Below, in pieces: positions 42,028 through 59,451 of a stretch of DNA of 64,000 nucleotides (positions are counted from its first letter, which is position 1; the number at the start of each line of letters is the position of its first letter). The notes under the pieces were generated by a model. That model was given only the letters and a program-made list of their open reading frames with translations. It did no database searches and had not been told where the DNA came from. Both the position numbers and the translations under genes were made by a program. Origin of the DNA: Qipengyuania marisflavi. GTDB lineage: Bacteria > Pseudomonadota > Alphaproteobacteria > Sphingomonadales > Sphingomonadaceae. The stretch is from positions 1 to 64,000 of the forward strand of contig NZ_VCAO01000004.1 in assembly GCF_005884405.1 (NCBI RefSeq), given 5' to 3'.

Positions 42028-42745
42028 GAAGATTTTGGCAGCATCTGCTCTGGCGGTTGCCACACTTGGTGCGTTTGCGGCGACTCCGGCTCAGGCTGGT
42101 GTGGTCGTCAAGGCGAGCGGCCCCTCATCCGCGCAATATCCGGTTGGCAAGAAGCTGGACGACATGTCCAATGTCACTCTGAAGGACGGTGATGTGATCA
42201 CTGTGCTGACCTCTACCGGAACCCGCATCATCAAAGGCCCCGGTACTCACCGCGTGGGTGCCCGTGGCAAGAGCAAAAACACCGCCTTCGCCCTGCTCAC
42301 CCGCCAGCGAGCTGGCGCACGGGTGCGGACGGGTGCGGTGCGCGGTTCCGGTTCTGCAATGGCCTCGACCAATCCCAGCCTGTGGAACATAGATATTTCG
42401 CAAAGCGGTCAGATGTGCGTGACCGAGGGCGAAACCATCAGCTTCTGGCGCCCCTCCACCGATGGCGCGGAAACCTATATGTTCAAGGCTGCACAGTCGG
42501 ACTTTCACGTCCACGTGATGTTCAGCGACGGTGATGCGACTGCCTCGATTAGTACCGAGGAACTGCCGCTTGGCCAGAATTTGGCTTATGAGGTTTCAGG
42601 CCCGGACGGCACTGCGCCTTCGGCCATGAATTTTGTGGTGCTCGACACTGCGCCGGACAATGCCGAAGATATGGCCGTTACGCTTGCCGAGAGTGGATGC
42701 ACGGGACAACTCGACCTGCTCGCGACAAAGCTCGCGGTTAATTGA
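42014..42745 (+). CDS. Secreted protein of unknown function next to CHASE2 cyclase
   Basis: Not a family I can name. The 243-residue product has a clear Sec signal peptide (hydrophobic core to ATPAQA-G near residue 29). The first mature half (VGKKLDDMSNVTLKDGDVITVLTSTGTR) looks like a small beta domain. The second half holds two Cys (MCVTEGETISFW and ESGCTGQ), perhaps a disulfide. It overlaps the cyclase gene by 14 bases, so the pair is translated together; it may feed a periplasmic signal to the CHASE2 domain. Confidence 0.75.
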   Translation: MFLAKKILAASALAVATLGAFAATPAQAGVVVKASGPSSAQYPVGKKLDDMSNVTLKDGDVITVLTSTGTRIIKGPGTHRVGARGKSKNTAFALLTRQRAGARVRTGAVRGSGSAMASTNPSLWNIDISQSGQMCVTEGETISFWRPSTDGAETYMFKAAQSDFHVHVMFSDGDATASISTEELPLGQNLAYEVSGPDGTAPSAMNFVVLDTAPDNAEDMAVTLAESGCTGQLDLLATKLAVN

Positions 42746-42760
42746 GGGCCGTTTGAATTT

Positions 42761-42794
42761 CTGCCAGGCAGCGGTAAAAACTGCTGCCTGGCAG
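42761..42794 (+). other. Perfect 12-bp inverted repeat (hairpin) before the cytochrome genes
   Basis: CTGCCAGGCAGC (42761-42772) and GCTGCCTGGCAG (42783-42794) form a perfect 12-pair stem with a ten-base loop, 15 bases after the stop of the secreted-protein gene. No run of T follows, so it is not a textbook terminator. It may limit read-through from the cyclase gene into the cytochrome operon, protect the upstream message, or bind a protein. Confidence 0.6.
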
Positions 42795-42856
42795 GCGCCG
42801 CCGGGGGGTGGCCACGTTTCTGATGCGTATGCGCGCATCTGTTCGAGGGGAGGCAT

Positions 42857-44284: not shown

Positions 44285-46269
44285 TCCGCGCAGCACGCGC
44301 CTCGAAACTGTGCCTTGCCGGGGCGCTGGCGATGGTTCTGGCCAGCTGCGGCGGCGGTGATTCCTCGACCGCGCCTTCGCCAATCGGCGGCGGCGGCGGT
44401 ACGCCCACTCTGACCCCGCCCACCAGCGGGCGGCAGTTTGCCGACCCTGCGAAAGAGGCGCTTTCGGTCGGCGATGTCCAGCGGGTTATCGCGCAGGCGG
44501 CTGGCGAAGCGCAGCGGCGCGGCCTGCCCTCGACCATCGCGGTGGTGGACCGGGTGGGCAATGTGCTGGGCGTTTTCGTCATGGCCGGGGCACCGGGCAC
44601 AATGACGATCAGCCGCCAGACCATTTCCGGCACAGCGGGGCCGGGGGAGGAAGTCGGTCTGCAGGGCGCGCGCGTCCCCAGCGCCGCCGCCGCCATCGCG
44701 AAGGCCATTACCGGCGCATATCTGTCGAGCGGCGGCAATGCCTTTTCGACCCGCACGGCCAGCCAGATTGTGCAAGAACACTTCCCGCCCGCACCCAATA
44801 CTGTCGGACTGGAAAGCGGCCCGCTGTTTGGCGTGCAGTTCAGCCAGCTGCCCTGTTCCGACCTGTCCACGCGGATGCAGGATGGCCGGATCGGTCCCCA
44901 GCGATCGCCGCTGGGACTGGCCGCCGATGCGGGCGGTTTTCCGCTGTACAAGAACGGTGTGGTGGTCGGCGGCATCGGCATCGCAGGTGACGGACTGTAT
45001 GGTTTCGATGCCAATATCCGCAATCGCGACCAGAGCGACGAAGAAGGCATCGCACTGGCGGGAACCCAGGGTTTTGTCGCCCCGCGTGCCATTCTGGCCG
45101 ACCGGATCACGGTCGACGGCACCAGCCTGCGCTATAGCGATGTCACAGTCAGCGACATCGGCCCGCTGCAAGGCAGCTTTGGCGCGGTAAACGGCCCGCT
45201 GGGCACGTTGGCGCCGGTCACGGGATACAATAACGGTACCATCCGCGCAGGCACGGCCTATGGCTCTGAGGCATCGGGCGTGCGCCCAAGCAAACCGTCC
45301 GAATTTGCCCTGCGCGATGCCTATGTGCTGAGCGATGGCAATGGCAATGGCCGCTATCCGATCCGCGCCGGGACAGACGGGGCCAGCGTGGCGCAGCCGC
45401 TAACCGCTGCCGAAGTCCGGATCATTCTGGAAGAAGCCTTCGCCGTGCTGTCACGGGCACGTGGACAAATCCGCCGCCCGCTCGACAGCCGGATGCAGGC
45501 GACGGTCAGCATGGTCGATACGCACGGCGTGGTGCTGGGCATTGTCCGTTCGCCCGATGGCCCGCTGTTCGGCACCGATGTCAGCCTGCAAAAGGCTCGC
45601 ACCGCCGCGTTTTTCTCCAACCCCGTGGCCGCGCAGCAATTGCAAAGCTCGACCCCCGACATAGCTCGTTATGTCGAACGCGTGCGCGCCTTTCTGGACG
45701 ATCCCAGGGCGCTGACTGGGGAATTTGCGTTTGCCGATCGGTCGGGCGGCAATCTGTCGCGCCCCTATTTTCCCGATGGCGAGGTTGGCCCCGTGGCGGG
45801 CCCATTGTCCGTCGAACAGCCGGGCCAGTTCAATCCGTTCATGACCGGCCTGCAAACCGATCTGATTGTGCCCAATTTGCTCGAGCATCTTGGTTTCGTG
45901 GTGTCTGGCGGGGCGCAGCCGGACACGTTGCGCGGCTGTACCAAGCTGGCCGATGCGCCGGGCGGGACCAAGCGGATTGCCAATGGTATCCAGATTTTCC
46001 CCGGCTCGGTGCCGATCTATCGCGGCGGCCGGTTGGTTGGCGGGATCGGGGTGTCGGGTGACGGGATCGACCAGGATGACATGGTCAGCTTCCTTGGCCT
46101 GCACAATGGCGGCCAGCGGGCTGGCGGCGTCGGCAATGCCCCCGTCGAAATTCGCGCCGACCGGATCGTGGTCAATCTGGGCGGGCGCAATGTCCGCCTG
46201 CGCTATGTCAGCTGTCCCTTTGCACCGTTCCTTGACGATCCGGCGCAGAATGTATGCCAGGGGCTGTGA
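44281..46269 (+). CDS. Lipoprotein with two HbpS/GlcG-like (heme-binding) domains
   Basis: A 662-residue lipoprotein: the signal ends in a lipobox (MVLASC) and is followed by a Gly/Pro linker. Two related halves each begin with an HbpS/GlcG-type segment: LSVGDVQRVIAQAAGEAQRRG with STIAVVDRVGNVLGVFVM (about 60-100), and LTAAEVRIILEEAFAVLSRA with ATVSMVDTHGVVLGIVR (about 375-425). Each half later contains a similar ending (VVGGIGIAGDG and LVGGIGVSGDG). HbpS-like domains bind heme or sense redox state in some bacteria. Between a pentaheme cytochrome and a barrel it may anchor hemes at the outer membrane. Overlap with both neighbours indicates coupling. Confidence 0.82.
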   Translation: MIRAARASKLCLAGALAMVLASCGGGDSSTAPSPIGGGGGTPTLTPPTSGRQFADPAKEALSVGDVQRVIAQAAGEAQRRGLPSTIAVVDRVGNVLGVFVMAGAPGTMTISRQTISGTAGPGEEVGLQGARVPSAAAAIAKAITGAYLSSGGNAFSTRTASQIVQEHFPPAPNTVGLESGPLFGVQFSQLPCSDLSTRMQDGRIGPQRSPLGLAADAGGFPLYKNGVVVGGIGIAGDGLYGFDANIRNRDQSDEEGIALAGTQGFVAPRAILADRITVDGTSLRYSDVTVSDIGPLQGSFGAVNGPLGTLAPVTGYNNGTIRAGTAYGSEASGVRPSKPSEFALRDAYVLSDGNGNGRYPIRAGTDGASVAQPLTAAEVRIILEEAFAVLSRARGQIRRPLDSRMQATVSMVDTHGVVLGIVRSPDGPLFGTDVSLQKARTAAFFSNPVAAQQLQSSTPDIARYVERVRAFLDDPRALTGEFAFADRSGGNLSRPYFPDGEVGPVAGPLSVEQPGQFNPFMTGLQTDLIVPNLLEHLGFVVSGGAQPDTLRGCTKLADAPGGTKRIANGIQIFPGSVPIYRGGRLVGGIGVSGDGIDQDDMVSFLGLHNGGQRAGGVGNAPVEIRADRIVVNLGGRNVRLRYVSCPFAPFLDDPAQNVCQGL

Positions 46270-48146
46270 TGGCGGCTGAGTTCATTGCCCCGCTACTGCT
46301 GCACATGGCAGCGCAACCAGCGGGTGAACTGCCGCCGCAGACCGAGCCTGTACCGGCTGCGGAGCCAGCACCTGCCGCCGAGCCGGCCATCACCGCTGAA
46401 CCGCCAGAGCCGCCGCCGGTCGATAACGAGCTGATCGAAGGGCGCCGCCGCCCCGACTATACCGAACCGCTGCCCGATGAGGTCAGCCAGTTCAACGAAG
46501 GCGCAGTGCGCGCACCGCCGCCTGAGGCGTTCCCGACCGATCAAATTCCCATCCCCGACCGCTGGCGGCTGATCGAGAGCCTTGGGCTGGTCAAGGAGCG
46601 CTGGTTCGATCCCTACAATCAGAACACCTATAAGGGTGATCGCCCGATCAACCCGGACAAGGTGCCGTGGTTGCCGATCAAGGGAAAAGACTGGTTCTTT
46701 ATCGTCAATGCGGTGAGCGATACCGTTATCGAGCCGCGCACTTTCCCAATTCCCGTCGGCGTGCAGACGACCGAGCGCCCACAGAGTCTGGACGTGTTTG
46801 GCAAAGACGCCAGCTATGTTCTGTCGCAGACCTTTATCGCCGGGGTGGCGCTGCTCAAGGGATCGACCGCATACAAGCCGCCCAATGTCGAATATCGCGT
46901 AACGCTGGCAGTGAACGCAAACTTTGTCGACGTGCCCGAACGCCGCGTGCTGTTTGTCGAACCGTCCAAGCCATCGCGGCGGTTCGATTATTTTGTCGGG
47001 TTGCAGGAAGCCTTCGTCGACTACCATTTCCGCAATGTGTCGGCACGTTATGATTTCGATTCGGTGCGGATCGGAATCCAGCCTTTTCAGGCCGATTTTC
47101 GCGGCTTCCTGTTCAATGATAACCAGCTGGGTGTGCGGTTCTTCGGCAATCGCGACAACAACCGCTTTCAGTACAATTTCGGCGGCTTCTGGCGTCTGGA
47201 GAAAGACACCAACAGCGGCCTGAACGCGGTGCTCCAGCGGCCCCGCGATGACTTCCTGTTCTTCGCCAATGCCTATCGCCAGGATTTCCTGATCCCCGCG
47301 CTGACCAGCCAGGTGACTTTCGCGTGGAATGCCAATCGCGAAGGCGACGAAATCGAGATCGACGATAACGGATTTCCCGTCCGTCCGGCTTTGCTCGGCA
47401 CCTTGCGCGGGCGCGATTACGATGTGTTTTACCTCGGCTATAATGCCGATGGCCGGGTGGGCCGGATTAACATCACGGGCAGCGCCTATTATGCCTTTGG
47501 CCAAGACCGCAACAGCTTCTTCACCGACCAGAAGGCCGACATCAGCGCATATTTCGCCGCCGCAGAGCTGAGCTATGACAAGGACTGGATGCGGTTCCGC
47601 CTGTCAGGCGCCTTTGCCAGTGGCGATTCCGATCCTTATGACAATGTCGAAACCGGCTATGATGCGGTGTTTGAAAACCCCGTGTTCGCCGGTGCCGACA
47701 CCTCATACTGGATCCGCCAGACGATCCCCTTTGCCGGGGGCGGGCGCGCGGTATCGGTGAATGGCCGCAATGGCCTGCTCAATTCGCTGCGCAGTTCCAA
47801 GGAACAGGGGCAATCCAACTTTAACAACCCGGGTTTGATGCTGGTTGGCGTAGGGGCAGATTTCGATCTTACCCCCGAACTGCGCCTCTCGGGCAATGCC
47901 AATCATTTGTGGTTCGAGAACACGGCGACGCTGCAGGCGCTGCGCAATGAAGGCAGCATTCCCAAGGATATTGGCTGGGATTTGTCGGCGGCCGCGATCT
48001 GGCGTCCTAAGGCCACGCAGAACATCGTTATGCGGCTGTCCGCTGCGGCATTGATATCGGGGGATGGCTTCCGCGATCTGTTCGACAATGTCGGCAATAG
48101 AGGGGAATATTTCTCTGTGCTTGCCAATGTGATCCTGACCTACTGA
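46269..48146 (+). CDS. Predicted outer-membrane beta-barrel protein
   Basis: A 625-residue protein with a hydrophobic N-terminal segment, a Pro/Ala/Glu-rich linker (about 20-55), then a long series of alternating amphipathic strands with aromatic ends. It finishes on GEYFSVLANVILTY, a typical barrel-insertion signal with a terminal aromatic residue. There are no heme motifs. It lies between the lipoprotein and the decaheme gene, where a barrel would sit in a porin-cytochrome conduit (MtrB-like role); sequence similarity to MtrB is not apparent to me. The start at 46269 uses TGATG coupling; an in-frame ATG at 46254 is also possible. Confidence 0.8.
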   Translation: MAAEFIAPLLLHMAAQPAGELPPQTEPVPAAEPAPAAEPAITAEPPEPPPVDNELIEGRRRPDYTEPLPDEVSQFNEGAVRAPPPEAFPTDQIPIPDRWRLIESLGLVKERWFDPYNQNTYKGDRPINPDKVPWLPIKGKDWFFIVNAVSDTVIEPRTFPIPVGVQTTERPQSLDVFGKDASYVLSQTFIAGVALLKGSTAYKPPNVEYRVTLAVNANFVDVPERRVLFVEPSKPSRRFDYFVGLQEAFVDYHFRNVSARYDFDSVRIGIQPFQADFRGFLFNDNQLGVRFFGNRDNNRFQYNFGGFWRLEKDTNSGLNAVLQRPRDDFLFFANAYRQDFLIPALTSQVTFAWNANREGDEIEIDDNGFPVRPALLGTLRGRDYDVFYLGYNADGRVGRINITGSAYYAFGQDRNSFFTDQKADISAYFAAAELSYDKDWMRFRLSGAFASGDSDPYDNVETGYDAVFENPVFAGADTSYWIRQTIPFAGGGRAVSVNGRNGLLNSLRSSKEQGQSNFNNPGLMLVGVGADFDLTPELRLSGNANHLWFENTATLQALRNEGSIPKDIGWDLSAAAIWRPKATQNIVMRLSAAALISGDGFRDLFDNVGNRGEYFSVLANVILTY

Positions 48147-51100
48147 TGCGCAGATTCCGCCATCTTGTCGCTCCTGCTGCGCTGGTGGTGTTCGCCAGCG
48201 CGTTTGGGTTTGGTCAGCTGAGTGCGGCGGAGGAAGAAAAGGCGGTCAAGCGTGACTACAGCCTGGTCACTGCCGCTCCGGCACCGCGCAATCAGAGTGT
48301 GGAGCAGATGGCGGCCAAGTCCGATGGTTGTTTCTCCTGCCATGTCCAGACTGATCAGCCGACCATGCACGCCACCCCTGCTGTCCGGCTGGGCTGTGTG
48401 GATTGCCACGGCGGCGATGCCAATGTGCGCGGCAATAGCGAACTGGAGCATAACGATCCCGCTTATATCGCGGCGCGCAATGCGGCCCATGTCCTGCCGA
48501 CCTATCCCGAAAGCTGGCACTGGCCGTCATCGGCCAATCCCAAGCGGTCCTACTCGCTGCTCAACCGCGAAGATCCGGTCTTCGTGCGCTTCGTCAATCC
48601 CAGCGATTACCGCGTCGCACGGGAGGCCTGCGGTGCCTGTCATATCGAAACGGTCGAGGCGGCCGAACGCTCGATCATGGCGACCGGCGCGATGCTATGG
48701 GGCGGGGCGTCCTACAATAACGGAATTCTGCCGTTCAAAAACTATATTATTGGCGAGGCTTACACCCGCGAAGGCGAGGCCGCGAAATTGCAGTCACCCG
48801 GTGTGCCCGCCAGCACTGTAACACCGATGCAAAAGGCGCGCGGCGCGCTGGCCGAACTTTATCCGCTGCCCACTTGGCACGTGGTCCCGCCGGGCGATGT
48901 ATTCCGCGTGTTCGAGCGTGGCGGGCGCAATATCGCCTCGCAATTCCCCGAGATCGGCCTGCCCAACCCAACCGGTTCGATCCAGCGGCTGGAAGAGCCG
49001 GGACGTCCCGATCTCAAGCAGTCAAACCGCGGCCCGGCCACTGGCCTGCGGGTGGCCATTCCGGTGCTCAATATCCATAAGACCCGTCTGAACGATCCTT
49101 TCATGTGGTTCATGGGGACCAATGATCAGCCGGGCGATTATCGCCATTCGGGGTGTTCGGGCTGCCATGTGGTCTATGCCAATGACCGCGAACCGCGCCA
49201 TTCGCTGATCTATGCCAAGCTTGGGCGTGACGGGCAGAGCGTGACCATCGATCCCACAATTGCCGCACTTTACGAAGGCGCGCGGGGCGATGGGCATGGC
49301 GGCGGACATGGTGATGCCAAAGCAGAGGATCACGGCGACACGCATGGCGATGAGCCGAAAGCTGCGCATGGTGACAATGATCACGGCGCGCTGAAGCAAC
49401 CCGGCGATCATGACGGCAAAGGGCCGGTAAAGGAAAAGGGGCACCCGCTCCAGCACACCTTCACCCGGTCCATCCCGACCGCGCAGTGCATGAATTGTCA
49501 TATGCACCAGCCCAACATCTTCCTGAATTCCTATCTCGGCTACACCATGTGGGATTACGAGAGTGACGCGCCGCTGATGTGGCCGGAGGATCAGAAATAT
49601 CCCACCGCGCAAGAAGTGCACGACGTGCTGGAACGCAATCCCGAAGGCGCTGCGCCCAAGGGCAAGTGGGCCGATCTCGATTTCCTGCGCAATGTCTATG
49701 ACCTCAATGCCGTGGCCAAGGACACGCAATTTGCCGATTATCACGGCCACGGCTGGAATTTCCGCGCGATCTTCAAGCGCGACCGTGAAGGCAATCTGCT
49801 AGATGCCGATGGCGCGATTGTCGACAATGACGACCCCGAAAAATGGCGCCGCGAAGGTGAGGGCAAGTTTGTCGAGCCCGGCATAAATCCCGGCAAGGCG
49901 GTCCACATGATGGACATCCATGCGGAAAAGGGCCTGCAATGCGCCGATTGCCATTTCGCGCAGGACAGCCACGGTAACGGGCTGATCTATGGCGAAGTCG
50001 CCAATGCGGTCGAGATCGGTTGCAAGGATTGCCACGGCACAGCCGACGCGCTGCCGACGCTGCTGACCAGCGGACCGGCAGCACCGCCCAAGGGCAACAA
50101 TCTGGCGCTGCTTCGCAACCCTGATGGCCAGCGGCGGTTCGAATGGACCTATGGCAATGACGGGCGGCAGGTGCTGATCCAGCGGTCCATCGTCGATCCC
50201 AGCTTGGAGTGGGAGATCAGCCTGACGCGCGACAGCGTCGATCCCGCCAGCAGCCATTTCAACGCCAAGTCGGCCCGCGCCAAGCTGATGAGCAAGACCG
50301 GCGCGGAAACCGGCATGTTCGAATTCGGCACCGGCATTGCGCCAGACGAGCGGGCGCATGGCGAAACCGAGATGGCGTGTTTCACCTGCCATTTGTCATG
50401 GACCACAAGCTGCGGCGGGTGTCATCTGCCGATCGAAGCGAACTGGCAGACCGAGGCGCACAAATATGACGGCGGTACGACGCGCAATTTCGCGACCTAC
50501 AATCCGCAGGTCGCGCGCGACCAGATGTTCCAGCTTGGCAAGCATCAGACGACCAAGGGTAATCAGATCGCGCCGATCCGTTCGACCAGCGCGCTGGTGC
50601 TGTCATCGACCAATATCAATCGTGAGCGCATTTATGTCCAGCAGCCGCCCGTGTCCGCAGCAGGCTACTCCAGTCAGGCCTTTGCGCCGCATTTCCCGCA
50701 TACTGTCCGGCTGACCGAGACCAAGACCTGCACAGATTGTCACCTGTCCGACGCCGATGATAACAATGCGATCATGAGCCAGCTGCTGCTGCTCGGCACC
50801 AATTTCGTCAACTTCGTCGGGATGAATGCATGGATCGGGCAGGAGGATGGATTCGAGGCGATCCGCGTTACCGAATGGGACGAACCGCAAACCGTGCTGG
50901 GCTCGTACCTGCACAAATATGCCTATCCCGACTACTGGCGCCGTCACGTCGAGGACAATGGCCGCGAACTGAAGGACTGGACACGCGGGCAAACCTTTGA
51001 TGACGATATCAGCGGCGAAACCCATGCGTTCGAACAATTCGCCAATGTTCGTGAGGGCACGCGTGACCGTGTCGCCTGCCTGCAATTGCGCGGCGAATAT

Positions 51101-52324
51101 ATGTTCGTGGCCGAGGGGCGCGGCGGCTTCAGGGTCTATGATGTCGCCTCCATCGCCAACAAGGGCGTGTCCGAACGCATCATCACCGCACCATTCGGCG
51201 CGGGCGGGCATGACAGTCACGTGAAGACCAAGAACGCCACCTGCATGGCGCTGGCGACCAATCAGCCGGTTCGGCCTGATCGCAACAAGGCGATGGCGCA
51301 GACCGAGGTGAAGGATGCCGATGGCAACACCATTCCCGGCGCTGACGGCACGCCGATGACGCTGCTGCATGTGAACCAGGAACAGGTGATGCGCCCGATC
51401 TATGATTATGCGGTCATCACTGACAGCGTCGAAGGGCTTATCCTGGTCGACATCAACACGATGGCTGATGGCGAGTTTCGCAACAACAATCTGAAGCGCG
51501 CCGTTACGTGGAACGAGGGCGGCGTACTGGCCGGCGCGCGCCACGTCACGCTGGCAGGCGACATTGCTTATATCACCGCTGACAAGGGGCTGGTGGTAAT
51601 CGATCTGGCCGATCCGCTGGCGCCGCAGCTGATGGCCGTACGCGAGCTGAACGATGCCCGCGCCAGTGCGATCCAGTTCCGTTATCTGTGGGTCACCGAC
51701 GCGCAGGGGCTCAAGCTGTTTGATGTCACCGATATGCGCAATCCTGTGGCAATGCCGCAAGGGACAGTGGCGATGGCGGATGCACGGCGGCTCTATGTCG
51801 CACGCACCTATGCCTATGTCGCGGCGAAGCAGGACGGGCTGGTGATCCTTGATGTGAAGAACCCGCTGGCCCCGCGGATCGACCAGCGGGTGACGCTGGA
51901 CGGTACGCTGAACGATGCCGAGGATGTGATCGTCGCATCGACCAACGCGACGCTGTTTGCTTACATTGCCGATGGACGGAACGGGATGAAGATCCTCCAG
52001 CTGACCAGCCCCGACAGCCAGCGCAATTTCTACGGCTTTAGCCCCGCGCCCCGGCCTGAACTGATAGCCTGGGCCAAGACCAAGGGACCGGCAATTGCGC
52101 TCAGCAAGGGGCTCGACCGTGATCGCGGCGTCGATGAAACCGGCGGCCAGATTGCGATCTTCGGCAGACTCGGCTCACGCCCCTTCACTCGCCCAGAGAT
52201 GGAGCGACTGTTCCTGACTCGCTCGGGCGTGCCTTGGAAGGTTTCGGACCAGCCGGATATGAATTCTTGGGTGGGCGGTAGCGGGCCGTGGCTCAAGCAA
52301 CCGCAAGCCGCGCTTGGTCAGTAG
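48146..52324 (+). CDS. Large decaheme c-type cytochrome with C-terminal LVIVD repeats
   Basis: A 1392-residue exported protein (signal to about LSAA at 28). Ten heme motifs are visible: CFSCH 62, CVDCH 84, CGACH 162, CSGCH 337, CMNCH 448, CADCH 599, CKDCH 626, CFTCH 745, CGGCH 756 and CTDCH 862. A His/Asp/Gly-rich insert spans about 382-437. The last third (about 960-1330) is a series of LVIVD-type repeats (GLVVIDLADPLAPQL, GLKLFDVTDMRNP, GLVILDVKNPLAPRI) that should fold as a beta-propeller. It has no lipobox or anchor. It may be the terminal surface or periplasmic reductase/oxidase of the conduit. It begins on the TGATG overlap with the barrel gene. Confidence 0.88.
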   Translation: MRRFRHLVAPAALVVFASAFGFGQLSAAEEEKAVKRDYSLVTAAPAPRNQSVEQMAAKSDGCFSCHVQTDQPTMHATPAVRLGCVDCHGGDANVRGNSELEHNDPAYIAARNAAHVLPTYPESWHWPSSANPKRSYSLLNREDPVFVRFVNPSDYRVAREACGACHIETVEAAERSIMATGAMLWGGASYNNGILPFKNYIIGEAYTREGEAAKLQSPGVPASTVTPMQKARGALAELYPLPTWHVVPPGDVFRVFERGGRNIASQFPEIGLPNPTGSIQRLEEPGRPDLKQSNRGPATGLRVAIPVLNIHKTRLNDPFMWFMGTNDQPGDYRHSGCSGCHVVYANDREPRHSLIYAKLGRDGQSVTIDPTIAALYEGARGDGHGGGHGDAKAEDHGDTHGDEPKAAHGDNDHGALKQPGDHDGKGPVKEKGHPLQHTFTRSIPTAQCMNCHMHQPNIFLNSYLGYTMWDYESDAPLMWPEDQKYPTAQEVHDVLERNPEGAAPKGKWADLDFLRNVYDLNAVAKDTQFADYHGHGWNFRAIFKRDREGNLLDADGAIVDNDDPEKWRREGEGKFVEPGINPGKAVHMMDIHAEKGLQCADCHFAQDSHGNGLIYGEVANAVEIGCKDCHGTADALPTLLTSGPAAPPKGNNLALLRNPDGQRRFEWTYGNDGRQVLIQRSIVDPSLEWEISLTRDSVDPASSHFNAKSARAKLMSKTGAETGMFEFGTGIAPDERAHGETEMACFTCHLSWTTSCGGCHLPIEANWQTEAHKYDGGTTRNFATYNPQVARDQMFQLGKHQTTKGNQIAPIRSTSALVLSSTNINRERIYVQQPPVSAAGYSSQAFAPHFPHTVRLTETKTCTDCHLSDADDNNAIMSQLLLLGTNFVNFVGMNAWIGQEDGFEAIRVTEWDEPQTVLGSYLHKYAYPDYWRRHVEDNGRELKDWTRGQTFDDDISGETHAFEQFANVREGTRDRVACLQLRGEYMFVAEGRGGFRVYDVASIANKGVSERIITAPFGAGGHDSHVKTKNATCMALATNQPVRPDRNKAMAQTEVKDADGNTIPGADGTPMTLLHVNQEQVMRPIYDYAVITDSVEGLILVDINTMADGEFRNNNLKRAVTWNEGGVLAGARHVTLAGDIAYITADKGLVVIDLADPLAPQLMAVRELNDARASAIQFRYLWVTDAQGLKLFDVTDMRNPVAMPQGTVAMADARRLYVARTYAYVAAKQDGLVILDVKNPLAPRIDQRVTLDGTLNDAEDVIVASTNATLFAYIADGRNGMKILQLTSPDSQRNFYGFSPAPRPELIAWAKTKGPAIALSKGLDRDRGVDETGGQIAIFGRLGSRPFTRPEMERLFLTRSGVPWKVSDQPDMNSWVGGSGPWLKQPQAALGQ

Positions 52325-52382
52325 CCAGCGGGATTTTGCAAACAACGCTGGAAACGCTTGAGGCTTAGTTGAACCCGCTAAG

Positions 52383-53234
52383 TCATGCGCGTTCGGAGAA
52401 CATTTCGCGGATCATCGGTTTTAGGTGCTCGCCATAACTGGCCAGAACTTCCCAATCGCCCACCGTCTCGTAATGCGTGACCAGATTGCGGCCATCCCAG
52501 CAGTGTAGTGCAAAGCTGGGTGGTTCGGTGGTGATCAGCGCGCGGTTGTCAGCCTTGTCAGGAGAAATTTCATTGAGGTCCAGCGCCACCAGCGGCGCGA
52601 CCGATGGCGTTACGCTGAGCGGGACGCCGCGAAAGCGGGTGGTAATCGGGCGGTGCAGATGGCCGCAATGGATTGCCTCGATATGCGTTTCGTGCCCGGC
52701 AATGGCCGCGCCGAAACGTTCGATCCATTCCTCGTCCGGGGCTGGGTCCATCCAGCCTATCCCGCTGACGATCGGGGGGTGGTGCATGAAGATCAGAACG
52801 GGTGTGCCGGGTGCCTCGTCAAGACGGGCACGCAGCCAGCGAGCCCGTTCCTCGCAGAACGCACCGCCGTGGCGGCCCGGTTCAAAGGTGTCGAGGCAGA
52901 GGATGCGCAGTCCGTCCTGTTCGACCAGATAATGGACAAAGCCGCCCTCGTGCCCGGTTTCGGAAAAGGCACGGAGCAATTCTTCGCGCGTGTCGTGATT
53001 GCCCACGAGCGGCAACAGGGGGCACGGGCATTCAGCGAGGATCGCGGCGGTCTTGGTGAAACTGTCCGCGTCACCGTGATCAGTCAAATCGCCGGACAGC
53101 ACCAGCAGGTCGGGCGCGGTTGGCAGGTTGAGCACCCGGTCGAGCACGGCGCGAAACCGGATGCGGTTCAGCTCTTCCGGCTTTGCATCAGGATCGAACC
53201 CGATGTGGATGTCGGTCATTTGCGCGATCAGCAT
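52383..53234 (-). CDS. Class III cyclic-nucleotide phosphodiesterase-like metallophosphoesterase (CpdA/Icc type)
   Basis: A 283-residue calcineurin-like phosphoesterase with every metal-binding motif: QMTDIHIGF, SGDLTDHG, VGNHD, MHHPP and CGHLHRP. The short N-terminal TDxH followed by GNHD and GHLH is the layout of CpdA/Icc enzymes, which hydrolyse 3',5'-cAMP. The ATG at 53234 follows GGGGAA. It lies 40 bases after the FHA-decaheme gene on the same strand and so probably ends the four-gene minus operon. With the CHASE2 cyclase and the cNMP-binding oxidoreductase nearby, cAMP is the likely substrate. Confidence 0.87.
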   Translation of the reverse strand: MLIAQMTDIHIGFDPDAKPEELNRIRFRAVLDRVLNLPTAPDLLVLSGDLTDHGDADSFTKTAAILAECPCPLLPLVGNHDTREELLRAFSETGHEGGFVHYLVEQDGLRILCLDTFEPGRHGGAFCEERARWLRARLDEAPGTPVLIFMHHPPIVSGIGWMDPAPDEEWIERFGAAIAGHETHIEAIHCGHLHRPITTRFRGVPLSVTPSVAPLVALDLNEISPDKADNRALITTEPPSFALHCWDGRNLVTHYETVGDWEVLASYGEHLKPMIREMFSERA

Positions 53235-53274
53235 CGCTGCGTTCCCCCGTTTTCCGACCCCATTGCGTTTTATC

Positions 53275-55023
53275 CTATCCTGTTTCCCGCGAAATGCGAG
53301 CGACCTGTTTGGGCGCGCCATCCGGATGATCTTCGGGCTTGCGGCCCTTGGGATGGTAAGAATGGCACATCGCGCAGGTGGAAGGCACATCGGCCTGTTT
53401 CGCGGCTTCGCCCAGATGGCATTCGCGGCAGGTGGCTATTCCCGGCAGCAATACATCCGTGGCCGCATCCGAGCTGTCAGCCTTGTGGCAGGTGGAGCAT
53501 TCCTCCTGCTCATGCGCTTCGTGATCGAAGCGTCCGTTGATAAAATAATCGCTGCGCAGATTGACCGGTATCACGCTGGGCCGCCCCTTGTCAGTCGTGG
53601 GCAAATGGCATTCGCCGCACACCCCGTCGCGGCTGAGCGCGCGGGATATACCGATGTAGTTCTGCGTCGGCTTACCGAAGTTCTGATAGTAGCGCCCGCC
53701 GCGCGCGAAATCGCCCGGACGGCGGCGGCCACTGGTGATCGGGCGGCGCGGCGCACGGTCCATCGCAATCAGATCGGCGCGCATCTGGTCGACATCGCCA
53801 TGGCGCAGCGTGCGGAACGTGGTGCCCACCTTGTCATAGACGAGGCTGTGACAGCTTTCGCAATCCTCCTCCATCCGCACCGGCAGGAAGCCGTTATTGT
53901 CGTCAGTGGGGCGGTGGCAATCGGCACATTCCAGCGCTTCGCCATATTTGCCCAGATTGCCCGCCATGCGTGCCACGCCATTGCTTTGCGACAAGTGCAT
54001 GTCATGCGGAAAGCGCAGCCCGCTGTTCTCACGCGCTTTGCCGTCCAGCGCTATGCGGGTCACGGTCTCGCTGCCAGGCGTTTGGTATACTAGCGCCTGC
54101 AATTGCGGATGGTTGGTGCCAAAATCGCTCGCATTAGCCAGCGCGGTGTCGGCCAGGCGCTGGTCCATAGTGTCATGGCAGGACGAGCAGAATTGCTGCG
54201 CTGCGGGTTCCATCCGTCCGGCGCCTTCATGTTCCGTGTGGCAGGTGGTGCAGGCTTCCGGACCTTCCTTGCCAAAGGTTTCGGCGACTTCCCACAACAG
54301 CGCATCGCCGCGCGACAGTGGCCCGCGCGCGCTGGCCAGCCGTGGCTTGCCTGCGTGATAGCCAATGCTTTCGTGACAGGTCAGGCAGGTTTCATCGCGC
54401 ACGGACTGGAAGGGCTCAACGTGGCAAGCTTCGCAATTCTGTTCCAGCGCATGGTGCGCCTGGCTCAGCTTGCCAGTGCTCCACGCCGCATCCATGCGGA
54501 CCTGATCGGTGCCGTCGGCGCCGGGGGCAGGATTGGCACGATTAAGATGGGTCCATATTGGCACGGCGAGAAACGCGAGCAGGATTGCGGCCATGCCAAG
54601 CCAGGCCAAGATCCGCTTGCTGGGCATGGCAGCGTCCAGATCGAAACCGCGTATCGCATCGCGATTGCCAAACTCGCGTTCCTGCTGGGTGATCGTGATT
54701 GCGGCGCGCCCGTCGCTCTCTTTGGCGAACAGCAGCGAATAAAGCCCGAACACAAATTCGCCGCCACCGCCTGCGCGGAAACTGGAATCAGTCGTCTTTC
54801 GACCATCATGCACAAAACCATGCGCGCTGGTCGAAACCATGCGCAGACGTCCGTCAGCAACGCGCTCCAGCACTGCATGATGCTGTTCCACGGCCAGATC
54901 GGGCAGGACAATATCGTTCGTGGTTGCGCGGCCAATCGTGAGCTTGTCGCCAGCCACTTCGCGCTCGCGCACGATTTCGCGGCCTGTGGCGGTACGGTCG
55001 ACTGTGCGGATGAGGAAGGTCAT
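53275..55023 (-). CDS. FHA domain - transmembrane helix - decaheme cytochrome protein
   Basis: A 582-residue protein of unusual build. Residues 1-100 form an FHA domain (TIGRATTNDIVLPD, then EQHHAVLE) where the usual SxxH pThr-site serine is not obvious. Residues 138-157 form one helix with no cleavage site. Residues 190-560 hold ten heme motifs: CEACH 197, CLTCH 213, CTTCH 258, CSSCH 279, CADCH 366, CESCH 388, CGECH 469, CSTCH 509, CRECH 532 and CAMCH 550. The FHA part must be cytoplasmic and the hemes periplasmic. The ATG at 55023 gives the FHA domain its natural start, ten bases after the b-cytochrome gene. Confidence 0.88.
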   Translation of the reverse strand: MTFLIRTVDRTATGREIVREREVAGDKLTIGRATTNDIVLPDLAVEQHHAVLERVADGRLRMVSTSAHGFVHDGRKTTDSSFRAGGGGEFVFGLYSLLFAKESDGRAAITITQQEREFGNRDAIRGFDLDAAMPSKRILAWLGMAAILLAFLAVPIWTHLNRANPAPGADGTDQVRMDAAWSTGKLSQAHHALEQNCEACHVEPFQSVRDETCLTCHESIGYHAGKPRLASARGPLSRGDALLWEVAETFGKEGPEACTTCHTEHEGAGRMEPAAQQFCSSCHDTMDQRLADTALANASDFGTNHPQLQALVYQTPGSETVTRIALDGKARENSGLRFPHDMHLSQSNGVARMAGNLGKYGEALECADCHRPTDDNNGFLPVRMEEDCESCHSLVYDKVGTTFRTLRHGDVDQMRADLIAMDRAPRRPITSGRRRPGDFARGGRYYQNFGKPTQNYIGISRALSRDGVCGECHLPTTDKGRPSVIPVNLRSDYFINGRFDHEAHEQEECSTCHKADSSDAATDVLLPGIATCRECHLGEAAKQADVPSTCAMCHSYHPKGRKPEDHPDGAPKQVARISRETG

Positions 55024-55033
55024 CTCCGGTCGC

Positions 55034-55930
55034 TCACCAGTAATAAAACACGCTGAGGATATGCGCGGCCAGCGCGGCGAGAAGCGCAATCGTCAGTGGG
55101 ACGTGGACATACAGCCAGATCTCAAGCAGCGCCTTGTACCGCATATGCTTGCGGATCTGGTCCAGCTGGGCCGAGCGGCGGCCCAGCAATGTGCGCACCT
55201 TCTGCTGCGCGGCGTCATCGGCATCGTCGGCATAGGCGCGCTTGGTCGAAATATGTTCCAGAGCGCGGCGGGTCGGCGCGCGACCGCGGCGGCCGGTGAG
55301 GCGCTGCCACAGCCCCTCCTTGAACACGTCATGCTCCAGCGCGGCGATGACCATATCGGTATCCTCACGCGCCAGCGGCAGGGCGGCTGCCTCAAGCTGG
55401 CGGTCGATTGCGGACAGGCTTTCGACCATCTGTTCGCGGGTCATCTCGCGGCGGTTTTCCGAAAGCTTTTCCGGCAGCATGGAATAGACCGATATGCCGT
55501 AAATGCCCGATGCGATCACCAGCACCATCAGCGCCCATGCCAGCGTGTGGACATTCCAGCCCAGCTGGAACCCGGTATGCAAAGTGCCGATCACCACTAG
55601 CGACAGGCCCAGATAGACATGCGCGCTGGTCCACGCTTTGACACTCCAATTGCCGGGATTGGCGCGCCGCTTGCGGATGCCGAGCAGCGCCAGCCAGACG
55701 ATCAGCCCGGCGCCAATTGTGCCCAGCGTATAGCCCAGCCAGCTGCCACCATTATGGCGCGGCTCGACATCGACCAGCAGATAAACCGTCAGGAAAAACA
55801 CGCTGATGAAAACGGCGATCTTGAGCCAGCGGTATCCGGCATATTCAAGAAAGCTGCCATGTTCGGCGGCATGGCGACGCTCGCGGCTTTGCGCGCGGCG
55901 CTCGCCAGCGCTTTTGAACAGCGAGGCCAT
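55034..55930 (-). CDS. Five-helix membrane protein, predicted diheme cytochrome b
   Basis: A 298-residue membrane protein with helices at about 35-55, 65-85, 103-121, 128-149 and 271-295. A long charged loop (150-270) lies between helices four and five. His104 and His118 on helix three, and His276 and His290 on helix five, are each 14 residues apart and would face each other if both helices run the same way; this is the spacing of bis-His diheme b cytochromes. I do not know a named family. Sitting between an Fe-S/flavin oxidoreductase and a periplasmic decaheme protein, it is the natural membrane electron path. It overlaps the upstream gene (TGATG). Confidence 0.8.
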   Translation of the reverse strand: MASLFKSAGERRAQSRERRHAAEHGSFLEYAGYRWLKIAVFISVFFLTVYLLVDVEPRHNGGSWLGYTLGTIGAGLIVWLALLGIRKRRANPGNWSVKAWTSAHVYLGLSLVVIGTLHTGFQLGWNVHTLAWALMVLVIASGIYGISVYSMLPEKLSENRREMTREQMVESLSAIDRQLEAAALPLAREDTDMVIAALEHDVFKEGLWQRLTGRRGRAPTRRALEHISTKRAYADDADDAAQQKVRTLLGRRSAQLDQIRKHMRYKALLEIWLYVHVPLTIALLAALAAHILSVFYYW

Positions 55931-58380
55931 CAGTCGATATCCTCCAGCCGCGCTACCGAGAGGAATTTTTCAGGTGACACGCGGATCGCCGCGCCGGTGG
56001 GGCAGGCGCGCACGCAGGCCGGACCGCCGGTAACGCCCGAACACATATCGCATTTGATCGCGACCTTGGGCGTTTCCTTGCCTTCTGCCTCGGCCTTTTT
56101 CTTGCGCCAGGAATAGTTGGCTTCGCCGGGGCCAGGGCCGGCGCCGAACAACAGCCATGACAGTAGGCCGGGCTTCTTGGGCGGGCGCGCATCCATGCGG
56201 ATCACGCCATAGGGGCAATTGCGCTGGCAATTGCCGCAGCCGATGCAGGTGTCATCGATGAACACTTCGCCATCGGGGCCGCGCTTGATCGCATTGGGCG
56301 GGCAATCGGCCATGCAATGCGGATGTTCGCAGTGACGGCAAGAAGTTGGGACGTGCAGATGCGCGTAGGTTTTGCCAGCCTCGCGGTCGAGGCGGCTCAG
56401 TCCATCATGGCTGTCGGCGCAGGCCTTTTCGCAATTGTCGCAGCCCACGCACAGCTTCTCGTCGATCAGCAGCACGTCGGTTGCTTCGCCAAGTCCGTTA
56501 TCGACCAGGAATTGGGCGGTTTGCGAATACATATCGACCGCGCCGCCAAAGCTGGCTTTCCGGCTTTCGACAAAATCGTTGATCTCGCGCCGCCCGGCCA
56601 TATCGCCCATCGCCTTTTCGCGCAGTTCGGGCTTGGCATCGAGCAGGGCGTTAAAGGCATCACCGGGCAGGCGGATGACCTCGCTCTTGATCGCGGCTTT
56701 TACTGATGCGGTCCGTTTCGACCCGTCGATCACAGCCATTTCGCCGAAATAGGAACCGGCAGGCAGGTAGGAGAGAAACACCGGGTGGCCGCCCAGATCC
56801 TTTTCAACGATCATCGATCCGCGGCGGACGATAAAGATGTCCTTGTCGTCGGCACCCTCGTTAATCACCGTTTCGCCAGCGCGCACATTCACGACTTCGG
56901 ATTGATCGACAAGATCGGCGACATCGGCGGGGTTCAGGCCCGATCCGAATAACTGCAACAGCTGCCGCTCGACAGAAATACGGTTGACCGCGCGGTTGGC
57001 CGATGGCGAGGTCGCCAGCAGTTTCAGCGCCGCTTGGCGTGAGAGCTCCATCACTACTGTGGGTTCGGCTGCACGGACGGTAGCACCGCGGCGGCGGCCC
57101 GAGATCAGCCCGACTTCACCAAAGATCGAACCCTGTTCGATGGGCACGGTGAAGTCGGTATCGTCAGGGTTCACCTCGACCGCCACCGAACCTTCGGCAA
57201 TAGCGAACATGGATGAACCGGAATCATTGCGGGTGAACACCACATCGCCGGGGCCAAAGGCGTGGACATCGCTGTCGAGCATCAGCTCGCGCATTTGCAA
57301 GGGCGACAATTCCTGCAGGATCACGACCTGGCTGCGGAACGTCTCCAGCCATTCCTCGACCGATTTGCGGCCCGGCAGAGCATTGAATTTGGCGGCCAGG
57401 ATCGGCTCGTCCGCAGGTTTGAGGTCGAGATTGCCATTAAGGAACTCGATCGCGTCATAGCCCTGGTTCATGCAGTGCTTGATCAGCGGATAGCCCGCCA
57501 ATGCGCCGATGACATGGATGCCGTTCTTGGTGGTTTCGAAGCTGGGGGAAAGCTGCGGGAACGCCCCGCGATCTTCACTGGTAAAGTCGATTCCGGCGGC
57601 TTCGACAAAAGCGCGGGGCGGCTGCGAGCCGGTGCGCGCGATGATCCGGTCACAGGGGATGGTTTCCTGCCCGTCACGCGTGTCCAGCACCATTTCGCCG
57701 GGCCGCACTTCGGCGGGGGTCGTATCGCGCCGTACGCTGATACGGCCATCGGCCTCCGCTTCTTCAAGCAGTTTGACGTTGGCGCTCTTGGCGCGCGCGA
57801 ATTCTGCGCCGCGGTTCAGGATAGTGACGACATTGCCCTGCATTTTGTCCGCAGCCAGACCCAGCGCGTTCTCGATCCCGGCGTCGCCTGATCCGATGAC
57901 CGTGATATGCTCATCAACATATTCTGTGGGGTCATCGAGCTGGTACTGGATATGCGGCAAATCCGCGCCGGGTACGCGCAAGACATTGGGATTGCCCTGC
58001 GTGCCGATCGCCAGCACCACGGCCTCTGCCGCAATGGTGTCACCGCTTTTCAGGTTGAGTGTGAAATTGCCGGTTTCGCCTTCTATGGCAGCGACTTCAG
58101 CATTGAGACGGACAGTGACCTTCTGGTCGGCCATCTGCTGGTCCCAAGTGTCGAGGATCACCTCACGCTTGCCAGCGTCGAAATCCAGCGGCGAGCGCAG
58201 CACCAGATTGCTGGGCGTCGCCATGACGTGCTTGCCCTTCTGGTATTTGTAAATCGTATCGGAGAGGTGGTCGGTCTTTTCGAGCAGGACGTGGCTCATT
58301 CCCAACTCGGCCGCGCGCGCGGCGGCGCTCAGCCCGGCAGGGCCGGACCCGACAATCGCCACACGCACTTTATCGGCCAA
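55930..58380 (-). CDS. FAD/NAD(P) oxidoreductase - two cNMP-binding domains - four-cluster ferredoxin fusion
   Basis: An 816-residue fusion. Residues 5-330 are a flavin disulfide reductase-like module (VAIVGSGPAGLSAA for FAD, ITVIGSGDAGIENALGL for NAD(P)). Residues about 355-465 and 480-585 are two cyclic-nucleotide-binding domains, each with a phosphate-binding cassette keeping its Arg (GEVGLISGRRRGATV, GEMAVIDGSKRTASV). Residues 640-800 carry 16 cysteines in four 4Fe-4S motifs (644-654, 681-693, 712-722, 777-793), like DmsB/HybA electron-transfer subunits. No signal peptide, so cytoplasmic. The TTG at 58380 is chosen because GGGGGGA precedes it; no ATG fits. First gene of the operon. Confidence 0.9.
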   Translation of the reverse strand: MADKVRVAIVGSGPAGLSAAARAAELGMSHVLLEKTDHLSDTIYKYQKGKHVMATPSNLVLRSPLDFDAGKREVILDTWDQQMADQKVTVRLNAEVAAIEGETGNFTLNLKSGDTIAAEAVVLAIGTQGNPNVLRVPGADLPHIQYQLDDPTEYVDEHITVIGSGDAGIENALGLAADKMQGNVVTILNRGAEFARAKSANVKLLEEAEADGRISVRRDTTPAEVRPGEMVLDTRDGQETIPCDRIIARTGSQPPRAFVEAAGIDFTSEDRGAFPQLSPSFETTKNGIHVIGALAGYPLIKHCMNQGYDAIEFLNGNLDLKPADEPILAAKFNALPGRKSVEEWLETFRSQVVILQELSPLQMRELMLDSDVHAFGPGDVVFTRNDSGSSMFAIAEGSVAVEVNPDDTDFTVPIEQGSIFGEVGLISGRRRGATVRAAEPTVVMELSRQAALKLLATSPSANRAVNRISVERQLLQLFGSGLNPADVADLVDQSEVVNVRAGETVINEGADDKDIFIVRRGSMIVEKDLGGHPVFLSYLPAGSYFGEMAVIDGSKRTASVKAAIKSEVIRLPGDAFNALLDAKPELREKAMGDMAGRREINDFVESRKASFGGAVDMYSQTAQFLVDNGLGEATDVLLIDEKLCVGCDNCEKACADSHDGLSRLDREAGKTYAHLHVPTSCRHCEHPHCMADCPPNAIKRGPDGEVFIDDTCIGCGNCQRNCPYGVIRMDARPPKKPGLLSWLLFGAGPGPGEANYSWRKKKAEAEGKETPKVAIKCDMCSGVTGGPACVRACPTGAAIRVSPEKFLSVARLEDID

Positions 58381-58494
58381 ATCGCAGTCCCCCCGGCTAG
58401 CGACCCCAGGTCTTTTTGTTGTCCGTTCTGCATCATAGGGAAATGTGGCGCGGTGGCAATTGCTGAACCGTAAGATGATTGGTAATCGCGGAGC

Positions 58495-59451
58495 ATGACA
58501 GAAAATAGCGAAACGCCTGAGAAATCCGGCACCGCAACTCGAAGCGGCGTCCTGCTGTTGGGCGTGGCGCTTGCCGTGGTCGCTGCGGCGATCGGCTATC
58601 GCGCGCTGGATGACCGTGAGGCGAGACCGGTTGCGGGCGGAGAAGAGCCTGCGGCGCTGACCATCGAGGATCTGCAACGCCGCGCCGATGCCGCGCCCGA
58701 TGACTCTGTGGCATGGCAAGAATTGGGCTTTGCACGCTATGAACGCGGCGAATTTGCCGAGGCTGTGACTGCCTATGCCCGCGCGACCGAACTGGATCCC
58801 GATCAGGCGATTTTATGGTCCGCTTTGGGTGAGGCGCGGGTGATGGCAAGCGCGCGCGATCCGCTGCCGGTAGAGGCGCTGATCGCTTTTGAACAGGCCT
58901 TGAAAATCGATCCGGATGATCCGCGTGCAGGCTATTTCCTGGCCGTGAAGCGTGATCTGGCGGGCGACCATGAGGGCGCGATTGCCGATTGGCTCGCCCT
59001 GCTGGCGAAAACGCCGCCCGGTGCGCCGTGGGAAAGCGACCTCGCGCGCACGATCGAGCAGGTGGGCAAGGTCAACGACATCCCAACCGAGGCGCGCATC
59101 AAGGCTGCGCAGGAGGCGCGCGGCGGTACGTTTGCAGCGGCTGCGCCAGCTCCCGCACCGACCTTGGCGGCGGCGCAGGGCATTCCCGGCCCCTCTGCGG
59201 ACCAGATCGCGGCGGCGCGCACCATGTCGCCGGGCCAGCAGCGCGAAATGGCCGAGGGCATGGTCGCCAGCCTTGAAAGCAAGCTAAAGGCTAACCCCGC
59301 CAATGTCGATGGCTGGGCCATGCTAATGCGCAGTCGTGCGACGCTGGGCCAGACCGATCTGGCGCGCAAGGCGCTGGCCGATGCGCTGGCCGCCAATCCG
59401 GGCGCGGCGCAGCGGCTGCGGTCGGAAGCCGAAGTGCTCGGCATCCGCTAA
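58495..59451 (+). CDS. Membrane-anchored TPR protein, CcmI/CycH-like cytochrome c biogenesis factor
   Basis: A 318-residue protein with one N-terminal helix (about 18-38) and a periplasmic TPR domain: WQELGFARYERGEFAEAVTAYARATELDPD and a second repeat near residue 130. A final repeat-like segment lies at about 270-310 (NVDGWAMLMRSRATLGQTDLARKALA). The layout matches the TPR portion of CcmI/CycH, which holds apocytochrome c for heme attachment. It is divergent from the oxidoreductase operon, next to genes needing 25 heme attachments, which supports this reading. The rest of the ccm operon is not in the window. Confidence 0.8.
   Translation: MTENSETPEKSGTATRSGVLLLGVALAVVAAAIGYRALDDREARPVAGGEEPAALTIEDLQRRADAAPDDSVAWQELGFARYERGEFAEAVTAYARATELDPDQAILWSALGEARVMASARDPLPVEALIAFEQALKIDPDDPRAGYFLAVKRDLAGDHEGAIADWLALLAKTPPGAPWESDLARTIEQVGKVNDIPTEARIKAAQEARGGTFAAAAPAPAPTLAAAQGIPGPSADQIAAARTMSPGQQREMAEGMVASLESKLKANPANVDGWAMLMRSRATLGQTDLARKALADALAANPGAAQRLRSEAEVLGIR

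Follow-up and report, generated by a model that had tools for sequence, protein, structure and literature searches.

The question raised by the 64,000-nucleotide window of Qipengyuania marisflavi analyzed here (contig NZ_VCAO01000004.1) is what four genes, termed A, B, C, and D, encode together and whether a cyclic nucleotide controls it. In the open reading frame listing of the window, these genes lie head to tail at 52383-58380 on the minus strand. A preliminary description of this stretch had read them as an electron path from NAD(P)H through flavin, Fe-S clusters, and heme b to a decaheme protein, and the gene set and its conserved motifs support that path. The four genes are real, but the unit had been drawn too narrowly, as a cyclase gene and convergent multiheme and barrel genes had been missed: six co-directional genes at 39928-52324 on the plus strand converge with A to D across a gap of 58 bases, and the functional unit spans approximately 39928-58380. 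With moderate confidence, we favor the reading that the unit encodes a trans-envelope, NADPH-driven electron-export system, whose inner end would be a cyclic-nucleotide-gated NADPH dehydrogenase.

According to this proposal, NADPH would reduce the flavin adenine dinucleotide (FAD) of A, held in a thioredoxin reductase (TrxR)-type ferredoxin-NADP reductase (FNR) domain without the redox CxxC, and the four [4Fe-4S] clusters in the same polypeptide would relay the electrons to the two hemes b of B. As in NADPH oxidases, B would then bring them over the inner membrane, where the ten hemes of C would accept them; the FHA domain of C may dock A or a regulator. From C, they would proceed by way of a c554-like multiheme cytochrome, a predicted barrel protein (Por), and a decaheme cytochrome with LVIVD repeats (LVIVD) to an extracellular acceptor. 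The cyclic nucleotide monophosphate (cNMP)-binding domains, placed between the flavin and the Fe-S clusters of A, would decide whether electrons pass. The messenger, most likely cyclic AMP (cAMP), would be made by the membrane CHASE2-cyclase of the island (Cyc), with the CHASE2 domain sensing an envelope signal, and in the organism's own family D may break the messenger down.

Protein A consists of a TrxR/FNR-type FAD-NAD(P) region (residues ~1-320), two cNMP-binding domains (~370-600), and a ferredoxin-like region with four [4Fe-4S] motifs (~640-800). Pfam returned cNMP_binding in two stretches (PF00027, 113.3 bits against a gathering score of 27.5), Pyr_redox_3, and Fer4 families, including Fer4_11 (E 1.3e-10), which makes A a pfam13247-type 4Fe-4S protein adjoining B. 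Its start codon is TTG, preceded by a G-rich stretch. We aligned 35 A proteins, a subset of those retrieved that was picked for complete frames. All 16 Fe-S cysteines were invariant (35/35), in agreement with the four 4Fe-4S motifs first described, and so were E422, R431, E547, and R556 of the cNMP pockets, the glycine-glutamate and arginine cassette being kept in both domains, which had correctly been called intact. In a strict-pattern cassette scan of 39 A proteins, L048 alone had one motif, with an Ile before its second GE. The best solved sequence matches of the tandem were the Toxoplasma multi-domain protein 9ya0, followed by the regulatory domains of protein kinases G and A, and the two domains look built to bind cyclic nucleotide. 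The second domain carries RTA, as in protein kinase G, and cyclic GMP is therefore also possible as a ligand. In a fold search, the structure model of the FAD domain matched YpdA (7a7b; Z 32.6, 311 residues aligned, root-mean-square deviation (rmsd) 3.0), a match that gives it the thioredoxin reductase/bacillithiol disulfide reductase fold, and FNR2 (8c16; Z 27.8, 299 aligned, rmsd 2.9). The redox-active CxxC of thioredoxin reductase is missing from residues 1-330 of A and from the 35-sequence consensus of that region, which fits electron transfer to the fused Fe-S clusters. R190 is nearly invariant and no acidic residue follows the second GxGxxG, suggesting NADPH as the electron donor.

The two histidine pairs with 14-residue spacing noted earlier in B, H104/H118 and H276/H290 (HX13H), were invariant in 26 aligned sequences, the others being 37-71% identical to B. 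W100, G142/G145, and W272 were likewise invariant and S141 nearly so, giving an SGXXG and two WX3HX13H motifs. Hydropathy, a crude transmembrane (TM) prediction, gave four segments above the threshold; the motifs match those of a 5-TM protein type. No Pfam family exceeded its threshold for B (Ni_hydr_CYTB was a sub-threshold match), FRD (PF01794) gave no Pfam match at E 0.1, and solved structures gave chance-level matches only. From the conserved motifs, we infer that B is a diheme cytochrome b. The four genes are all present as open reading frames, and the linkage of A, B, and C also held in relatives: C adjoins B in all 29 strong loci (L006-L008 and L014-L039) and A does so in 25. A different role for B would be to trade electrons with the quinone pool, in which case the conduit would be quinol-fed and A would only deliver or sense. 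Quinone exchange is proposed for such an inner-membrane protein in the accessible text of He et al. 2017 (PMC5566968), and N126 and H128, further polar residues after TM3, were invariant in the 26 sequences. Against this stands the complete FAD/Fe-S reductase that A represents beside B in those 25 loci, together with the flavin protein in the one cluster scanned of each of two known conduit types (PCC3-like L073 and PCC4-like L080), and we regard a quinone-linked B as unlikely.

For C, Pfam gave FHA (25.1 bits, cut-off 20.7) and c3/c7 multiheme families. The decaheme domain ascribed to it was upheld by ten CXXCH motifs, compared with a mean of 0.03 and a maximum of 1 in 2000 shuffles of the sequence. 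Ten motifs were also present in 109 of 113 C homologues (the conservation counts given below for C, D, and Cyc include the window's own protein); two others had nine, one had five, and one had none, the latter two probably being fragments or wrong frames kept in the count. A single hydrophobic segment (TM at ~138-156 by hydropathy) would leave the FHA domain in the cytoplasm and the decaheme domain in the periplasm. Matches of C to solved structures were weak only, to hydroxylamine oxidoreductase and the Rv1747 FHA domain. Base 55930 is common to A and B, and B and C are separated by 10 bases. A chance neighborhood of the four genes was considered and rejected, as the genes are adjacent in relatives and carry invariant residues; the shuffles of C, the invariant cysteines of A, and the invariant His pairs of B place the pattern far beyond chance.

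The six convergent genes include those that would form the outer half of the conduit. Four of their five junctions overlap, the 4179-bp LVIVD gene sharing one base with the Por gene. The c554-like protein has four CXXCH motifs in addition to a first heme motif of the form CX4CH (CAGSTCH), and C and LVIVD have ten CXXCH each. LVIVD begins with a hydrophobic segment, as judged by hydropathy, and is therefore probably exported; it had no match among solved structures. Por was modeled as an 18-strand barrel. The HbpS-like probable lipoprotein, which contains stretches of a haem-degrading family, adjoins the barrel gene in relatives too.

To describe the distribution of both halves, we used 27 strong extended loci (L043-L068 and L077), 5 of the organism's own family and 22 of other families. 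In 14 of the 27, none of them own-family, the genes for A, B, C, HbpS, Por, and LVIVD follow one another on a single strand; in the 5 own-family loci, the two halves run toward each other. LVIVD was present in the retrieved stretch of 20 loci, and 2 were cut by contig ends. L265, which comes from a different class within the phylum, shows this row as well. Searches for B gave a match in 45 of 289 genomes of the organism's class (27 at E <1e-50, own genome included) and in 28 of 398 genomes of the phylum. Among 80 named loci, which scored best of 581 and are thus nearest relatives, mostly sphingomonads, and many of them cut by contig ends, A, B, and C were present in all 80, D in 75, a CcmH-like TPR protein in 59, and LVIVD in 50. 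B occurred in 52 of 149 own-family genomes, and LVIVD in all 52 of these and in 1 of the 97 others, a genome 67% complete. The distance between B and LVIVD exceeds 30 kb on a single contig in 14 of the 52 genomes, and in 11 the two are on different contigs, some possibly through assembly breaks; in Sphingopyxis indica, LVIVD is on a 404-kb plasmid, and no A was found in that record. The co-occurrence of such distant genes suggests that selection, beyond inherited neighborhood, seems to hold them together. Qipengyuania flava DSM 16421 and Erythrobacter sanguineus DSM 11032 are among the named isolates that have the cyclase as well as the cluster. A and LVIVD are also carried on large secondary replicons, namely NZ_CP020539.1, where A to D and outer genes were seen, and 11 other Sphingobium replicons (0.88-1.28 Mb). 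In the NCBI annotation of one plasmid copy, A is a cyclic nucleotide-binding domain-containing protein, B a hypothetical protein, and C a cytochrome c3 family protein.

Cyc is the single class III cyclase (PF00211) found in the organism's genome in a search of that class. Class III adenylyl cyclases use two metal-binding Asp residues, an Asn/Arg transition-state pair, and a purine-selecting Lys and Thr, and in Cyc D462, K502, D506, T579, N586, and R590 were present in 41 of 41 sequences. Because of the Lys-Thr pair and the best solved matches, which were the adenylate cyclases 6fht, 3r5g (CyaB), and 1wc1, the messenger is most likely cAMP. PF00027 gave four matches in the genome, two of them in A and the other two in Fnr-like proteins without the cassette, so that, among PF00027 receptors, A holds the only intact cassettes found. 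With 23 GGDEF matches against one class III cyclase, cyclic-mononucleotide signaling looks confined to the island in this genome. The cyclase was found in 46 of the 52 own-family genomes with B, compared with 3 of the 97 others. Within the genus (37 genomes), strong B and a cyclase orthologue (at least 67% identity) occurred in the same 4 genomes, and a cyclase fragment was found in a genome 75% complete. Of 49 named genomes with A, B, and C, hand-picked from the best 80 of 581 loci with L179 left out, 45 had a near-full-length cyclase (at least 49% identity), and in 34 of these it lay at most 25 kb from B, as judged from coordinates and not from contig names. The remaining four (the genomes of L130, L134, L147, and L161) had weaker matches only; in that of L130, a Sec-like gene and a cyclase of 30% identity lie next to c554 (L284). 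Sec, the product of the gene following Cyc, goes with the CHASE2-cyclase also where the pair is distant from the outer cytochromes (L272-L274, L276, L277, and L279), and it is possible that Sec is a CHASE2 ligand or regulator.

The listed frame of D extends over 52383-53390; its start is likely the ATG at 53234, because its ribosome-binding-like stretch is better and D would then not overlap C. D matched Metallophos (57.6 bits), and its metal site was conserved as D60, H62, D101, N131, H132, and H203 in 76 of 76 sequences and as H244 and H246 in 75 of 76 (one gap), with D104 replaced by E in 8 of 76. The scores of D were below the NCBIfam equivalog cut-offs for CpdA (72.7 against 225 bits) and SpdA (128.1 against 400 bits), and its solved-structure likenesses were Rv0805 and the GpdQ-type 2zo9. 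D is putatively a cAMP hydrolase, which may degrade cyclic nucleotide in the own family. The preliminary suggestion that D resets the switch locally holds in part: D follows C in 75 of the best 80 named loci and in 5 of 5 own-family strong extended loci, but in 0 of 22 of the other families. Hence the expected co-occurrence of four families stood for A, B, and C and not for D outside the own family, and D was rejected as a core part. In one of seven further loci (L270, of another family of the class), a D-like gene is next to a CHASE2-cyclase gene (16941-19487, plus strand), 4.7 kb after A-B-C.

The view that no described complex has this set was too strong. PCC4 and a decaheme-porin group published in 2026 share its frame in the accessible text of the two papers (PMC5566968 and PMC13264449); the conduit type is already known, and the present system was probably glimpsed before. 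In the text available, He et al. 2017 (PMC5566968) describe PCC3 and PCC4 with a B-type inner-membrane protein; PCC4 has a porin, multiheme cytochromes of 4, 5, and 10 hemes, a 5-TM inner-membrane protein of ~300 residues with SGXXG in TM4 and two WX3HX13H motifs, and a 4Fe-4S protein of pfam13247. On that description, the present system shares the porin, multiheme cytochromes including a decaheme one, the inner-membrane motifs, and the 4Fe-4S protein, and differs in its heme motifs (4 CXXCH and 1 CX4CH, 10, and 10, instead of 4, 5, and 10) and in its outer cytochrome, which carries LVIVD repeats and 10 hemes where that of PCC4 has 5. Eight loci (L069-L071 and L078-L082) were assigned to a PCC4-like tier from gene content, with hemes read in L070, L071, L078, and L080. 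Flavin, cNMP, and Fe-S parts are fused in A, whereas L080 has a separate FNR with a 2Fe-2S domain; moreover, the flavin domain of A is TrxR-type, C has FHA, and the HbpS-like protein and cyclase are additions. No tblastn match to Por or LVIVD was found in the eight loci at E 1e-4. A protein with cNMP and 4Fe-4S domains is nevertheless encoded upstream of the B-like gene (Pfam, 4 of 4 scanned: L070, L071, L078, and L080). These cNMP proteins have 553-592 residues, with 16 cysteines in the last 170. An RTA-type cassette motif was present in 8 of 8 PCC4-like Fe-S proteins, with 0 matches in 9629 control residues, and the cNMP gate may be common to the whole class of porin-cytochrome conduits. Class III cyclases were found in the stretches of two of the eight loci (L070, 18045-19499, minus strand; L078, 91-1380, plus strand), with CHASE2 found in L078.

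Several observations weigh against a gated, NADPH-driven export chain. The donor (NADPH or NADH) and the direction of flow rest on inference. In the model of A, pLDDT falls below 50 over long stretches of the Fe-S region, so that inter-cofactor distances cannot be judged from this model. The model of Por is mediocre (pLDDT 61) and closest to AlgE, an alginate exporter (5d5d; Z 23.9, 363 aligned, rmsd 3.3); no MtrB-like barrel was among the 50 fold matches listed, which excludes nothing. FHA domains bind phospho-Thr through a conserved loop Arg, Ser, and His. In C, R32 was kept in 114 of 114 sequences and H49 in 102 of 114, but the Ser position is mostly E or N, and phospho-Thr docking is therefore doubtful. 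No A lies beside B in four strong loci (L020, L030, L033, and L034), although the genome of L030 has A elsewhere on the same contig (L077), and none of HbpS, Por, and LVIVD was found in the retrieved stretches of five strong extended loci (L050 and L063-L066). Across 28 loci, the distance matrices of A and Por were correlated (r 0.88, a value reached in 0 of 5000 permutations), but this correlation, like the Fisher values for co-occurrence, ignores shared ancestry, and shared descent alone could yield such a value. Linkage of D and the cyclase to the cluster is mainly a feature of the own family: no cyclase match was found in the retrieved stretches of the 22 other-family loci, where gating would need an unlinked messenger source. 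Even in the own family, the cyclase is absent from 6 of the 52 genomes with B, and one of the 46 others (G760) has a cyclase only 39% identical.

The absence from these six genomes would also be expected if the cNMP domains were structural or bound another ligand, the CHASE2-cyclase served other targets, and the linkage were historical; ligand binding by the domains is, besides, a prediction. The pocket residues invariant in 35 of 35 sequences, the cassette kept in all eight PCC4-like Fe-S proteins, and its absence from every other PF00027 protein found in the genome argue otherwise, and we hold this explanation, too, to be improbable.

With respect to the 2026 metagenome study, group 1 comprises, in its accessible text, 11 clusters with a decaheme gene of 4-5 kb and a ~20-strand porin, with ferredoxin-NADP reductase near in 7 of 11 (PMC13264449). 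The 4179-bp decaheme gene beside the 18-strand Por (a middling model) and the FNR-like domain of A resemble it, and group 1, likened by description, is probably the same system, although no FHA, inner-membrane protein, or cyclase is given for the group in that text. Membership in PCC3, in contrast, was rejected: the cytochromes there have very many hemes (medians of 34 and 21 in the accessible text of PMC5566968), against at most 10 per protein here. A PCC3-like tier (L072-L076, a second tier from the organism's own order) was set by gene content, four of the five loci being read. Its inner-membrane protein is similar in size and motifs to B, and clusters in the own genus (L072-L074) have a TrxR-like FAD protein and a CcmH-like TPR protein near it, the 4Fe-4S match having been Pfam-scanned in L073. 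These neighbors suggest that PCC3 may have an NAD(P)H link too. The differences are that L072 and L073 have cytochromes of 24 and 35-39 hemes and a 963-residue barrel, L075 (another genus) has 21 and 33 hemes and L074 has 21 and 5, and no cNMP domain was among the families shown for the single FAD protein scanned (L073).

Outward flow is favored by the strength of NADPH as an electron donor and by the heterotrophy of the hosts. In the opposite direction, electrons from an extracellular donor, such as Fe(II) or Mn(II), would run through LVIVD, Por, c554, C, and B to NADP+ or Fe-S, and cyclic nucleotide would gate uptake. At neutral pH, however, the potential of Fe(II) is too high for NADP+ reduction without energy input, no part of the system resembles a coupling module, and the named hosts are mostly sphingomonads, in general heterotrophs. 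Uptake gains from the accessible text of He et al. 2017 (PMC5566968), which models PCC3 and PCC4 as uptake routes of iron oxidizers. It gains also from a 2023 pangenome, in the available text of which a cluster with a ten-heme "Forkhead-associated protein", probably C-type but likened by description only, is listed for 27 of the 87 genomes of iron-oxidizing Gallionellaceae (PMC10734462). Taken together, we consider reverse flow distinctly unlikely.

Production of extracellular superoxide or another small reduced molecule, instead of transfer to a solid acceptor, would suit the layout of A and B, which is that of an NADPH oxidase (NADPH, FAD, and two HX13H helices), but it would leave the long multiheme chain and the outer-membrane barrel superfluous and is very unlikely. 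NADPH oxidases and ferric reductases resemble the proposed electron-export chain in their use of NADPH and FAD, their pair of hemes held between two HX13H helices, and their transmembrane electron transfer; they differ in that B has no FRD match, the flavin fold is of another family, and Fe-S clusters and a multiheme chain are added here. In Shewanella, cyclic nucleotide likewise influences extracellular electron transfer by Mtr, with cAMP acting on transcription through CRP. In the present system, the enzyme itself would be the target of the messenger, which would then provide a fast switch in place of the transcriptional control known so far. We further propose, tentatively, that this may be the first electron-export chain with an allosteric second-messenger switch, with the cyclase, receptor, and possibly phosphodiesterase forming a private circuit for the chain and the gate being present in PCC4-type conduits as well. 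Such a circuit would turn CHASE2 envelope sensing directly into electron flow, in a simple system where all cyclic-mononucleotide signaling parts found in the cell serve one machine. It would also give sphingomonads, which are common aerobic bacteria, a defined route of electron export, and unnamed cNMP-FeS proteins of porin-cytochrome clusters a biochemical role. The open-licence literature searched, supplements lying outside the search, yielded no description of the cNMP gate, of the cyclase, or of their tie to the conduit, and none of LVIVD repeats with a multiheme cytochrome. The term "cyclic nucleotide" is absent from the main text of PMC13264449 and from that of PMC5566968, of which Supplementary Figure 4 (PCC4 domain architectures) may show a cNMP domain. 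The features of the island and its flank are collected in Table 1.

Table 1. Features of the electron-export island and its flank, in coordinates of the window.
Feature	Position	Strand	Evidence
A, 816 aa	55930..58380	-	Pfam, alignment, structure model, fold search
B, 298 aa inner-membrane protein, inferred diheme cytochrome b	55034..55930	-	alignment, hydropathy, motif definition of PMC5566968
C, 582 aa, FHA-TM-decaheme	53275..55023	-	Pfam, CXXCH count, hydropathy, conservation
D, class III metallophosphoesterase (CpdA/SpdA/Rv0805-like), likely 283 aa	52383..53234	-	profile matches, conservation
Cyc, 699 aa, CHASE2 + TM + class III nucleotide cyclase	39928..42027	+	profile matches, conservation, hydropathy
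Sec, 243 aa, probably secreted, Cyc partner	42014..42745	+	no Pfam match
c554-like multiheme cytochrome	42857..44284	+	Pfam, heme-motif count
HbpS-like probable lipoprotein, four HbpS-like stretches	44281..46269	+	Pfam
Por, 630 aa outer-membrane beta-barrel, 18 strands in model, AlgE-like	46254..48146	+	structure model, fold search
LVIVD, 1392 aa decaheme cytochrome, C-terminal LVIVD repeats, probably exported	48146..52324	+	Pfam, CXXCH count, hydropathy
CcmH/CycH-type TPR protein (cytochrome c biogenesis family), divergent from A	58495..59451	+	59/80 named loci
Weak sigma-70-like site upstream of A	58432..58459	-	1 found in region, 2.1 expected by shuffling

A scan of the region for promoters and terminators gave no excess over shuffled sequence, Rfam returned nothing at gathering scores in 39000-59500, and no tRNA was found in the window. 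Ahead of the island, at 29125-33712 and 35250-39831, are genes for MTHFR, a split methionine synthase (methyltransferase and B12 parts), and the glycine cleavage T protein and two-part P protein.

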